Positions 1 through 24,100 of a DNA stretch of 32,284 nucleotides are shown in pieces (the stretch's first letter is position 1; each line of letters begins with the position of its first letter). The notes under the pieces were generated by a model. The model had not been told where the DNA came from. It did not search any database and saw nothing but the letters and a program-made list of their open reading frames with translations. The stretch is taken from positions 1 to 32,284 of the IMG/VR virus record IMGVR_UViG_3300025098_000170; one strand, given 5' to 3'. The translations under genes were made by a program, and so were the position numbers. The DNA is from a virus.

Positions 1-28
1 CAATACCTATTACAAACAACATATAGAT

Positions 29-254
29 ATCTACTAAAGCTGGTTGTAACAACTTATGTAGATGTAAGAAAGACTACAGTACCCTGAACCAAAAACACTT
101 AAATAAAAAAGGTACTGCAGTCTATAAGGAACTGTAACATTGCACAACATGAACGACCAAGAAAAGAATTAATGCAATGCTACAGTTATATTAAACTATG
201 ACACCCGAGTTAAACAATGTTACATTCACGTATACAAAGCCGGGTGCCATAGTT
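29..254 (-). ncRNA. Tandem array of four RNA hairpins downstream of the last leftward gene
   Basis: No gene is visible here; the stretch is filled by hairpins. Reading leftward they are: 194-207 with 241-254 (14 pairs, 33-nt loop), 130-144 with 173-187 (15 pairs, 28-nt loop), 71-83 with 111-123 (13 pairs, 27-nt loop), and a shorter bulged one at 29-37 with 54-63 that contains an inner GTTG/CAAC stem. Spacers are 6, 6 and 7 nt. Each of the three long stems has exactly one irregular pair, always A-C on the + strand and therefore U-G in a leftward RNA. The arm sequences differ while the architecture is kept, which suggests selection on RNA structure. The first hairpin starts 5 nt after the stop codon of the 260-475 gene, so it would be made as that transcript's 3' end. 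Function is unknown, and the array may continue beyond the left edge. Confidence 0.6.
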
Positions 255-259
255 ATTAG

Positions 260-475
260 TTAAGAAGATATAGGAAACTTCTCTCTAAGTTCTTTAAGGT
301 ATTTAAGAGTTAAATCCATCTCATCTAATTCACGCATTGCCTCTTTATTGATAAGCTCTATATGAGGGTAGCTATTAGACAAACGGGTTAACTCTTTATC
401 CAAATACTCTATAGCATGATAAAGAGCAGTGTTATATAGTAATGTCTCTGTAGGGTTAATATTAAGTGAAGGCAT
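260..475 (-). CDS. Small helical protein, paralogue A of a three-member family
   Basis: 71 aa, charged and predicted almost entirely helical, with no signal peptide or membrane segment. Residues about 17-66 form two amphipathic helices joined by a Ser/Asn/Tyr/Pro turn. The pattern (AL..AIE.LD.EL, linker with Y, acidic second helix, LKYLKEL) resembles the proteins at 786-1019 and 1039-1257 in length and layout. It is the last gene of the leftward block. Its leader carries TCCTTTAA 19 nt before the ATG, a motif shared with the other two family members. The hairpin array begins 5 nt beyond the stop. I do not recognise a function; a small early-expressed regulatory or host-takeover protein is only a guess from position. 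Confidence 0.7.
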   Translation of the reverse strand: MPSLNINPTETLLYNTALYHAIEYLDKELTRLSNSYPHIELINKEAMRELDEMDLTLKYLKELREKFPISS

Positions 476-523: not shown

Positions 524-567
524 GTACTACGGTTAATACTAGTATTATATACTGGTATTGTTAGTAC
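524..567. repeat. Intergenic hairpin containing a 14-bp perfect palindrome
   Basis: The 108-bp gap between the 584-781 and 260-475 genes contains GTACTA (524-529) paired with TAGTAC (562-567). Inside it, AATACTA (535-541) can pair with TGGTATT (553-559). Positions 534-547 are alternatively a perfect palindrome, TAATACTAGTATTA. It could be a processing hairpin between two leftward genes or a regulator-binding site. There is no T-run that would make it a normal intrinsic terminator. Confidence 0.4.
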
Positions 568-18206: not shown

Positions 18207-18252
18207 GTAGTGATACACAGGTATTTATTTTTTTTATTTTAAATTTTTAGAA

Positions 18253-19752
18253 ATGGCTTATTTTAATCATGCATTTAGAAAATGCTTTTTGGTAGACAGT
18301 GTTACTACTGCTGCTGGAGCCACTACAACTTTAGGTCCTGGTGATCTAGGTGTTGTTGATGGTTCAACTTGGCAGATTGTGGCTAACCCCGCTGCTGTTA
18401 GTGCTGGTGCACAAACGTTTTTGGTAGTTGGTTCACAACATACTGTTGACACTATTGGTAATAATCCTGGACACGGTGGATATTCTGAATCCGTTAAGTC
18501 TAAAGGAATTATGGGCAAATACATTAGTAAACTTTGGAAGTCTTTAGATTGTGCTCCTGCTGCAGCTACTGCTTCTGTTCAATTAGCTTCTGACTGTGTT
18601 CCATGTGGATCTAGCATCTTTTTAAGAATGGACGTTAAAGGTTCTCCTGCACTTCGTTTCTTGAATCACAATGCTTATGCTATTGGAGATTCTGCAAATG
18701 TTTGTTGTGTAGACGGACAAGACTATATTGATCCAGCTGCTGCTCTTGCAGAAGCAGGTTCTCAATTATTAGCTGATCCAATTCTTTCTCCATTTGTTAG
18801 AGAAGATTCTGTTGGAGGTGTTCCTGCTGCGGTTGGAGCTGGTGCATCTGCATCTGGTAATTTCTTTGGTGCTCCTACAACATATGCTAATGTTGCTGTA
18901 AAATCTACATCAGGATCTGGTGTAATTACTGGTGCAACAGTTACTGTAACTGCACAAGCTGGTGTTGGTGCTACAGCTGTTATTGATGCTGGTACATTTG
19001 CACAAGGTGGTTATGCAGTAGGAGATACTGTTGTTGTTGATGGTGCTGGTGTTGGTGGTACTACTAGTACTGATGATATTACTTTTACTATTACATCATT
19101 AGCTCAAGGTGGTATTACTATCGTAAGAGGTGGTGTTACATACTATTACACTATTGCTGAAGTAAAAGCAGGTACTTATGCAGCATCTACTGATCCAGTA
19201 ACTGATGGTGTATCTGCTACTCTTACAGTAGAAGGTGCTTATGTTGATACTCAGTTTGGTAACTGCTCATTTGATACAAGAGATCACTATGAGAAGGAGC
19301 CTGTACAAATCATCTTATCTAATCTTGATGAGACTGGTGAACCATGTAATGATTGTGGTGTAGCTTCCAGAACTACTGGAGTTATGGCTCAGATTTCTGG
19401 TGAAACTGTTCTTAGAGATTTGTTAATGAGTGAACGTTACATGCAAATGCCTTATAATCAAGGTAATGCTGATTCTTCAAGAATTCGTGAGATTGAGCAT
19501 TCTGATGATATTGTCAGTGCTGTTGATAGAAGTGCGAGATATGTTTCTCTAAATCTTCTTCACAGTGTTCCACGATTTAATAATCCTAGTGGAGTATTTG
19601 ATAATGATCAGTACTTATATACTTTCTATGCAGTAGCTGGATCTGCCGGTGAAACTGCACTAGATACATTATTTGGTCAGATTGCTGCACTAGCTAGTGT
19701 AGATGCAGTTCTTGACACAACTGATGCTTGCGGAAGTCCTTGTACTATTTAA
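18253..19752 (+). CDS. Major Cys-rich structural protein, probably tail or fibre
   Basis: 499 aa. The N-terminal 180 residues are compact (YFNHAFRKCFLVDS, GKYISKLWKS). Residues about 195-325 are an Ala/Gly/Thr/Val-rich beta insertion (for example ATVTVTAQAGVGATAVIDAG) that looks Ig-like. The C-terminal third resumes a conserved body (EPVQIILSNLDETGEPC, VLRDLLMSERYMQMPYNQGN) with helix ENDs near 470. Cys pairs occur as CVPC, CC, CNDC and CGSPC, suited to disulfide or metal bridges. It has its own promoter-like element in front and a terminator behind, so it is likely made in large amount. Not recognised as a named family. Confidence 0.72.
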   Translation: MAYFNHAFRKCFLVDSVTTAAGATTTLGPGDLGVVDGSTWQIVANPAAVSAGAQTFLVVGSQHTVDTIGNNPGHGGYSESVKSKGIMGKYISKLWKSLDCAPAAATASVQLASDCVPCGSSIFLRMDVKGSPALRFLNHNAYAIGDSANVCCVDGQDYIDPAAALAEAGSQLLADPILSPFVREDSVGGVPAAVGAGASASGNFFGAPTTYANVAVKSTSGSGVITGATVTVTAQAGVGATAVIDAGTFAQGGYAVGDTVVVDGAGVGGTTSTDDITFTITSLAQGGITIVRGGVTYYYTIAEVKAGTYAASTDPVTDGVSATLTVEGAYVDTQFGNCSFDTRDHYEKEPVQIILSNLDETGEPCNDCGVASRTTGVMAQISGETVLRDLLMSERYMQMPYNQGNADSSRIREIEHSDDIVSAVDRSARYVSLNLLHSVPRFNNPSGVFDNDQYLYTFYAVAGSAGETALDTLFGQIAALASVDAVLDTTDACGSPCTI

Positions 19753-20611: not shown

Positions 20612-21127
20612 ATGGGAAGAACAGTACAAGATATAACCCGATCAACTAAGAAGTTTGCAGATACTGTATTTAGAAGATTCAGAGCTGTGAGATTTGGTAT
20701 GACACCGTGCTGTATAGATGATTATAATAAAGTTGTAACAGAATATAATATCTGTAAGTGGATAGACTCTCAAATACTTGTTAGAGATGTCAGCCAGGTA
20801 GTATCTAGTATAGTATCTAATCCTAATAATCCAAGTTCTAGTGATGAGTACTTACAGATAGTTGTTATTGACGCAGATGGAGATGCCGTGAAAGATTTTG
20901 AGATTTATATTAATAATGAGAAGATTGGTAAGACAGATGCTAATGGGCATTTGAATTACACTATTGAAAATGCAAATTTAATTACTTCATATACTATTAA
21001 CTTTTGCTATTGTTTTAGCACAATGGGTTTTGATAGAACTCAGAAGTTAACAGTTACAGTTACAAATGATCCAGATAAACCGGATTGTACGTTACCTGAA
21101 GTTACTTGCACAAATGTTAGTAGTTGA
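20612..21127 (+). CDS. Virion protein with N-terminal anchor and Ig-like domain
   Basis: 171 aa, starting 1 nt after the previous stop. Residues 1-75 are basic and helical (TKKFADTVFRRFRAVRFGM) with Cys33/34, an anchor-like region. Residues about 80-150 are a small beta-sandwich of the kind seen in carboxypeptidase-regulatory or bacterial Ig-like domains: YLQIVVIDADGDAVKDFEIY, NNEKIGKTDANGHLNYTI, then SYTINFCYCFS. Such domains on phage particles bind polysaccharide surfaces weakly. It ends with two more Cys and a TGA stop. Confidence 0.65.
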   Translation: MGRTVQDITRSTKKFADTVFRRFRAVRFGMTPCCIDDYNKVVTEYNICKWIDSQILVRDVSQVVSSIVSNPNNPSSSDEYLQIVVIDADGDAVKDFEIYINNEKIGKTDANGHLNYTIENANLITSYTINFCYCFSTMGFDRTQKLTVTVTNDPDKPDCTLPEVTCTNVSS

Positions 21128-21185: not shown

Positions 21186-24100
21186 ATGATACCTAGCAAT
21201 AACGGAAAAGTAGAACCTTGTTCACACATATCTTCTAATTGTGTTGTATGGCAAGGACCAGACATTGAGTGTATTAACCTATGTAATGGTGATACAGTTA
21301 GTGATGTAGTAGCTAAACTTGCAACAGAGGTATGCGACCTTATAGATGGAACATGTACTTGTAATCCTACTTTAGATATTACTGTAGGTTGTTTAACAGG
21401 TATTTCAGATCCAACTGATTTAGATGAAGTTATTAATGCTATTATAACTGAGTTATGTACAACAAGTAATGCTAGACAAAGTATAGCTGTTGCTAATATA
21501 ACAGGATCATTAGCTCTTCCAGTTTGTTTACAATATACTGATCCATCTACTGGTCAGCTTGTAACACAGCTTCCTATAGAAACATATGCTACAAGATTAG
21601 CTGCAAAGATTTGTGATTTAAATAATGCAATTAACATTATTAATACATCACTAACAAACTTTGAATCTAGATTATCTATCATTGAGTCTTGTGTATTACC
21701 ATGTACAAATGAAACAAATGAGGTAGAGGTTGTATCATCTTGTTTATTTTCTTCTGAGCTGGTAAAAAGTTCAACATTACTACTTGCATTAGAAACAGCG
21801 TATTGTCAGACAAGAGATGCAATTGGTCAGGTTCCTGCTATAAATAATGCAATAAACGCACAATGTATATTTGGAACTGATGATCAATTATCATCTAATG
21901 GTACATATAGCGGAAACACATTATGGACTAATACTCCAAGTAACTTAGCCGATTCACATAAGAATCAATGGGTTGTTATATGTGACTTATATAATGCTGT
22001 ACAAAGCATTCAAGAGAACTGCTGTGATAGTGGATGTGCTGCAACTACCTTTAACTTTGCTACAACAACAATTGAAACATTAGGTGTAGCAACAGCAATT
22101 AACTTTAACTTTACAACATCTACTGTTCCTAGAGGATTTTCAGATTGTGGTAGTATGATTACTATTACAGATCAGAATGGTGCATCAGTAACTCAAGCAT
22201 TTGATGTTTATGTATTACAATCAAATCCTACTGGTACATCAGTAACAGTTACAGCATTAGATGTAACAGCAGCATTAAGCATTAAAGTAGATTTCTGTGC
22301 ATCAGATAATGATAGCACTTGTGAAGAGACTATTAACCGCACTATTCCTTTAGGCATTGCTTGTCCTTCTGACTTTGCTGTAAGTAATGAAACAAATACT
22401 ACTGTAGATATAAGCTTTACAAATGGCTTAGGTACTACAGTAACATACGAAGTAGAAGTAACAGATAATACTACCGGTAACGTAGCTAGTACAGTTACTA
22501 TATCAAGTCCTGGAGTAAGCGTTAGTGAAACTATTTCTGGCTTAAGTAAAGGCACATCGTATAACTTTACGTTAAAGATTATTACATCAGCTGGTTTAGA
22601 ACAAGTTTGTCCTGCAGTTATAGCCACAACTACTGGTACAGCATGTACAGTATTTGATGTAACTACAGCAGGTACTCCTGTATCAAATCCTGAAACAGAT
22701 TGGATTTACTTAGGTTATGATGATACAGCACCTACAGATTATTACTATGATGCAGATGCTCAAGAAATTATTGCAGTAGCAAGAACAGTTACACCTGTAG
22801 ATATTAGAACTGCATTTGACGGTGGTGGTGCTACTGATCCAACTGTATCTGGTGCAGGTGTAGTTGATTTTGATATTAGTACAGCTGGTATGACAGCATC
22901 AGATACTATTACAGCGTCTTATAGTGCAGATGGAATAACATTTGTAGCTGGAGGAACTGTAAATGGTTCTGGTATTTCTAATCCATATAACTTTAACTTT
23001 GCAACAGGGGCTACTTCAGGTAAGCTTTATATTAGAGTTAGAGTAGAGAATGCTGGTTCATTATCAGCATATGCAGAATTTGTTTGGGATTTTGAATCTA
23101 ATTTCTTTATTAGAACTGCAGGTCCCCTTACAAATATATTAGCAGATGGTGCAGGTAATGCGCATCCTAATGGGTTATCTATAGAGAGTCAGTCATTAAC
23201 TTGTGGCACAAATACTTACAATATTACAGGTAGCAAAATTGATTTTTACTATGTAAGACCTATTACTCTTAACAGCATTCAATATTATATGTATGTTGCA
23301 TTTACAAATAGTGCTGGTCCAAATCGAGTAGTATTTTGTTGTGATGCTCCATCTATTCTTGGTGCAGATAATGTTGCAGACAATGCTCAAGAATATGTAG
23401 AGTATGGTGGCACGGGTGTATATAATATTAACTTTATATTAGGCGAGGGAGATCTTGTAGTAAGTGTTACTACTCCACCTGTTGCAGGTACACTTGTAGA
23501 TAACGGTACTGTAAATTCATTTGGTGAGAACAGAAATCCACTTAATAGAAGATTTACATATACTCATGATGGTGCAACAGATCACTCAGATATATTCTCA
23601 TTACAATTAACAAATAGTGCGGGTACTGTAACTGAAACAAGATCATACCAAATTCAAGTTATACCAGATGCGTTTATTGGATTACCAGGTACAGCTAAAA
23701 ACATATTTGCATTTATTGATACAACTTCTTATACAGTAACTAGAGGTACTGCATTAATTAATGGTTTGAATGCATGGGCTACTCAATATGCTACAGATTG
23801 CTCATGGACTGGTTCATTATATATTGTTCCTGTTCAAGATAATAATCACATAGGATATATTAAAGCAGTGGTTGATACTGGAACAAGTGCTAGCTTAGAT
23901 CCTGCAGCTGGATGGGTTGCTTTACGCAGTCTACCAACAGATTGGACTGGTGGGGCAGCAGTTCCTAATCCAGGAGTCATGGTATTATCATTTTCTAATG
24001 AGTCTGATCCTGATTATCATAATTCAACATTAGCGGCAGGATGGGCTCTTAGTTCTGGTTTCCAACCTTCTACAGCATATCAAAATAATTATGATGAACT

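Follow-up and report, generated by a model that had tools for sequence, protein, structure and literature searches.

The analyzed stretch of DNA (here, the window) is a 32,284-nt virus contig from IMG/VR. Its large terminase exhibited 25 to 27% identity to those of gut crAss-like and Flavobacterium phages. Judged by sequence, the window derives from a crAss-like phage, of which it represents a fragment; given this terminase kinship, the host probably belongs to the Bacteroidota. Phages of the crAss-like group are abundant, and few members have been cultured. Two overlapping contigs (G001 and G002) both extend beyond base 1 of the window, which corresponds to position 18,211 of G001; the latter contig (41 kb) is 99.9% identical to the window over 18.2 kb. 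These overlaps place an array of hairpins in the leftward early operon, where it reads in the same direction as the early genes on both sides; the structural genes are oriented opposite to this operon. In leftward order, the locus consists of small ORFs, a 71-amino-acid (aa) ORF, four hairpins (H4, H3, H2, and H1), ~190 nt of further noncoding sequence, a 40-aa lipoprotein-like ORF, a 28-aa ORF, a 68-aa ORF, and an HTH_36 gene, past which lie other early and DNA replication genes (i.e., helicase, Toprim primase, DnaB-like, and uracil glycosylase genes). The features within the window are as follows.

1..192, minus strand: in-window part of a conserved noncoding module (from the overlapping contigs and a comparison with contig L180)
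27..65, minus strand: hairpin H1, weaker, 8 pairs, 23-nt loop
71..123, minus strand: hairpin H2, 13 bp, 27-nt loop, G-U 8 pairs from the loop (independent stem scan)
130..187, minus strand: hairpin H3, 15 bp, 28-nt loop, G-U 8 pairs from the loop (independent stem scan)
194..254, minus strand: hairpin H4, 14 bp, 33-nt loop, G-U 7 pairs from the loop (independent stem scan)
260..475, minus strand: 71-aa ORF directly upstream of H4, no recognized family (L180 has an M23 peptidase gene instead)
524..567, no strand assigned: element A, CTAACAnyACCAGTA ... ACTAGT, symmetric and AT-rich, in the same spacer in most relatives

The array (positions 27 to 254) comprises three hairpins with stems of 13 to 15 bp and loops of 27 to 33 nt, together with a weaker fourth. 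This arrangement had been proposed in a preliminary description of the sequence, and the independent stem scan recovered its three longer hairpins; the H2 stem reaches up to 15 bp if two inner pairs are counted. As that description had stated, H2, H3, and H4 each contain one irregular pair, 7 or 8 pairs from the loop, which is A-C on the plus strand and G-U on the minus strand. The sequence 5'-GCA/UGU-3' surrounds the G-U pair in all three alike. The smaller fourth hairpin is also present, but it has a stem of only 8 pairs and its irregular pair is reversed relative to those of H2 to H4 (i.e., U-G on the plus strand and C-A on the minus strand). The H2-H3 and H3-H4 spacers are 6 nt each, the bases 3' of the stems read UUAAUAU, CCUUAU, and UUCUUAC, and H4 starts 5 nt past the stop codon of the 71-aa ORF.

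Folded as RNA, positions 1 to 260 reached -80.5 kcal/mol (z = -7.1) on the minus strand and -60.4 kcal/mol (z = -5.0) on the plus strand; none of 200 shuffles was as stable on either strand. The proposal of a structured leftward RNA is supported by the higher stability of the minus strand, the G-U pairs on that strand, the shared direction with the early genes, and the position 5 nt past a stop codon. Within 55 kb of the window phage, H2 to H4 are the sole stems of their class (i.e., 13 bp or longer, 15- to 40-nt loops, and no more than one irregular pair). In 40 Markov shuffles of the 55 kb, single hairpins of this class occurred at a mean of 1.6, and two within 10 nt of each other occurred in none, while the phage has three consecutive ones. 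Chance does not account for the array. A 220-nt segment over the array ranked first of 500 for excess stability on the early strand, at 28.5 kcal/mol below its own shuffled mean (runner-up, 22.3 kcal/mol); an earlier scan with 130-nt segments had missed the array, because segments of that size cut the hairpins, and was rerun at 220 nt.

No Rfam covariance model (GOLLD, ROOL, OLE, and all others) matched the array at the gathering score, and neither ARAGORN nor Rfam detected a tRNA cloverleaf in it. A series of intrinsic terminators was rejected on the grounds of the 27- to 33-nt loops and the lack of a GC-rich stem with a U run, and no direct repeat family of the CRISPR or ToxI type was found in positions 1 to 254; the earlier exclusion of tRNA, CRISPR, and terminator series is therefore retained. 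The similarity among the hairpins did not exceed that in shuffles, so the claim of "covariation within one molecule," based on different arms sharing one plan, is not upheld. The loops showed no long complementarity to the phage's own transcripts beyond that of shuffles, and nothing convincing was found among the genes neighboring the array with respect to defense. Nine records (four array-holding records and five larger relatives; the window phage genome is partial) contained neither an RVT_1 reverse transcriptase (retron/DGR) nor a TROVE protein (Ro60, Y RNA).

Type III antitoxin RNAs (ToxI) are tandem, structured, near-identical repeats located in an operon next to a toxin gene. The array likewise consists of tandem units in an operon, but its units differ from one another and the adjacent ORF has no recognized family. 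Phage T4 encodes two stable hairpin RNAs of unknown role (RNAs C and D) inside its tRNA cluster, and the array can be likened to these phage hairpin RNAs by description only. Our literature search turned up no account of a noncoding RNA from a crAss-like phage. A review of the Crassvirales reports that early genes are transcribed by a virion RNA polymerase and that the early genes of crAss001 include one for a TROVE protein (PMC10136315). GOLLD and ROOL are large structured phage noncoding RNAs of unknown function that often lie near tRNA genes (PMC12286853). The window phage similarly carries a tRNA-Arg(TCT) gene ~2.5 kb downstream of the array (G001 20679-20753, equivalent to L093 5907-5981, downstream of the HTH gene); unlike GOLLD and ROOL, the array has no Rfam match, and its simple hairpins in tandem contrast with their ornate long-range fold. 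The cabRNA of staphylococcal phages is a structured RNA that originates from terminase genes and encounters an immune protein of the host (PMC10686824). It offers a precedent for the roles that such RNAs may play, the array being early and intergenic instead.

Only G001 and G002 carry close copies of the array. One diverged relative with the module, the 23-kb contig L180, was identified by means of a degenerate stem pattern; between the H3 base and the point where the 40-aa ORF begins, it is near-identical to the window phage (BLAST, 94% over 426 nt). In G001, the module extends to about position 18,360, where the next ORF starts. The first ~300 nt of the module in L180 contain a single altered loop. 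From H3 (its loop included) up to the H2 loop there are zero changes, the H2 stem is identical while its loop is changed by substitutions and a 2-nt deletion, and the following ~200 nt, H1 included, are unchanged, after which a few changes appear. In the gene beside the module, 90% of residues but only 50% of fourfold sites are kept in L180; most other genes of this pair keep 35 to 60% of their fourfold sites, and a few patches keep 87 to 93%. The 2-nt deletion and a further 1-nt deletion between the two phages break any ORF reading through the module, which excludes a conserved ORF across it. Compensatory changes in relatives, suggested as a check on the hairpins, speak neither way, the stems of H3 and H2 being identical in L180.

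L180 contains neither H4 nor the 71-aa ORF, so H3 is the 5' end of the conserved module, and hairpins start 5 nt past a stop codon in both lineages. This upstream difference indicates that H3 to H1 and the following stretch form one unit, to which H4 was added or from which it was lost. By sequence comparison, the locus thus appears to be a discrete noncoding RNA module, present in two lineages only, that is either strongly constrained or recently exchanged. As to whether the array continues to the left of base 1, conserved noncoding sequence does, but its extra hairpins are short, and the stability of this 3' half of the module is unexceptional (ranks 323 and 454 of 500). Stem-pattern and 17-mer scans for more members returned, beyond L180 and the phage's own contigs, only coding or unrelated sequence; one exact 20-mer of the array had no match in bacterial and archaeal genomes; and terminase-based relatives, most fragments of which stop short of the array, showed no like hairpin cluster. 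An M23 peptidase gene directly precedes the module in L180 (7928-8629) and lies 4 kb downstream of it in G001 (22188-22874).

The module ends, just ahead of the next ORF, in a small hairpin termed element B (CCTRAGYATG-n-AAACTGCTY), whose stem (RAGYA/UGCUY) shows pair changes between phages. Element B was located in G001 (about 18309-18335; L093 around 3538), L008, L010, L013 (twice), L099, L112, L129, and L180; it lies on the early strand at each site seen, including other early sites in relatives.

Relatives gathered via the HTH gene (80 loci) mostly carry, in place of the array, element A, a hairpin, and a gene of 150 to 190 aa. Element A, a motif with a dyad-symmetric AT-rich partner, is conserved across the clade (possibly as an operator, promoter, or replication site) and precedes in these relatives a different, covarying leader hairpin. 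This hairpin has a strongly covarying stem and a conserved loop (YTTTYTTTTTTMATACTTGTTT), lies ~800 nt upstream of the HTH gene, and precedes the 150- to 190-aa gene, which has no known family. In nine relatives, 11 of its 15 pairs are changed on both sides (25 both-side-changed cells versus 8.5 in shuffles; covariation score, 0.589 versus 0.224 in shuffles). The leader hairpin (model R1) is a good candidate for a new RNA family; it is carried by L118, L131, L132, L135, L151, L153, L154, L155, L156, L158, L160-L163, L166, L167, L169, L170, and L172. Membership of the array in this family was rejected. The best of the window hairpins against covariance model R1 was H2 (8.4 bits; E = 2.2), which is no match; the best alignment to the leader hairpins (H2-L158) was equaled in 5 of 1,000 shuffles, uncorrected over 24 comparisons; and a loop-motif test was suggestive only (loop P values, 0.045 to 0.25).

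Across the operon stretch of the relatives, irregular stem pairs on the early strand were G-U rather than A-C at 91 to 39 in noncoding sequence versus 113 to 89 in coding sequence (chi-square, about 6.6), which, because the loci are related, amounts to a lean, in the same direction as in the array. Other hairpins, some terminator-like, lie between the same operon segments in related phages. The idea that large ORF-free gaps of the relatives' early operon generally encode ornate RNA was rejected (mean z, -1.0 versus -1.45 for coding controls).

Collectively, the array is probably a functional noncoding RNA and is likely to act as RNA. We favor a structured early RNA, for which a trans-acting role is more likely than that of a cis processing element. 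Our leading proposal, held tentatively and with a little less than even confidence, is that the hairpins form the structured 5' portion of a noncoding module of ~330 to 390 nt in the leftward early transcript, giving a stable RNA that acts in trans. The module would be transcribed with the early operon, host nucleases might trim the 6- to 7-nt spacers, and the resulting stable RNA would, early in infection, present its successive stem-loops to a protein or RNA of the host, as a decoy or regulator. Extra hairpins (e.g., H4) may be gained or lost at the 5' edge of the module. A noncoding module better kept than the adjoining genes would point to an RNA-dependent step early in infection. We lean to trans over cis action only because the loops and flanking sequence are kept, and not the stems alone. 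The cis alternative, to which we assign a lesser and rather doubtful standing, is an intercistronic element that stabilizes the upstream message at its 3' end or supplies RNase III-type processing sites, leading to unequal expression of the genes on either side of the array. The start just past a stop codon in both lineages, the relatives' hairpins between the same operon segments, and the position of element B, which closes the module before the next ORF and recurs at other early sites, are consistent with such an element. However, a role confined to the stems predicts drift of loop and stem sequence, whereas H3, H1, and ~200 nt are unchanged in L180 beside a gene near saturation at fourfold sites, and three strong consecutive hairpins exceed the needs of a processing site.

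Since the module is found in two lineages only, its conservation may reflect recent exchange, and the lean to trans action weakens if this is the case. Patch exchange as the whole explanation of the near-identity to L180, with hairpins that have no particular function or a function in this lineage only, accords with the mosaic character of the genome pair (i.e., the other patches of high fourfold identity) and with the sharp 5' edge of the module, outside which the genes differ. It is nevertheless unlikely: it leaves unexplained both the exact start at a hairpin base and the coincidence with the part of the genome ranked highest for excess stability, and functionless stems of 13 to 15 bp would decay. 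The inverted repeats could instead work at the DNA level and serve replication or recombination as cruciform or single-strand sites, a suggestion that the proximity of the array to the switch between the oppositely read genome halves might encourage. We regard this as quite improbable, because loops of 27 to 33 nt disfavor cruciforms, the differing stems provide no common duplex site, and both the G-U form of the irregular pairs and the bias in stability fall on the strand co-directional with the genes. The closest architecture in the literature is that of stem-loop TIGR arrays, which are associated with Tas proteins, are known from phages, and consist of tandem stem-loop units with variable palindromic stems and short linkers (PMC12045711). 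The array shares these features strikingly closely, and the likeness to guide arrays gives reason for a direct test. A TIGR-like array, with two guide spacers per loop serving a Nop-domain protein, is very improbable, however. The H2, H3, and H4 loops have no recurrent box C/D motifs (TTT alone among trinucleotides occurs twice in them, at no constant place), the four array-holding records, which cover about half of the genome, contained no match to Nop (PF01798), although a distant Nop may escape the model, and none of the nine records contained Transposase_20 (IS110-like). A further reading, distinctly unlikely at present, is that crAss-like phages possess a system of guide or decoy RNAs whose nonidentical hairpin cassettes would be gained, lost, and exchanged, possibly TIGR-like with an unrecognized protein encoded in the other half of the genome.

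The tRNA-Arg(TCT) gene found downstream of the HTH gene in the window phage precedes the HTH gene in L097, L101, L102, L104, and L111, and upstream of this tRNA gene these five loci carry a hairpin-rich noncoding stretch. This stretch consists of short near-identical segments in varying order and includes a dispersed repeat (ATCTAACAGAGTAAACTGTTTAAAT). In one of its hairpins, the lower stem is retained, whereas the upper stem and the loop have been exchanged without loss of pairing (CTATAACTAGAGT versus CTATAACTACTAC). Elsewhere among the early genes, G001 32273-34698 (L089 12273-14698) contains adjoining genes whose products are a DUF2201 VWA-like/metallopeptidase protein and, by a weak match, an AAA ATPase, neighbors that resemble a MoxR-VWA pair.
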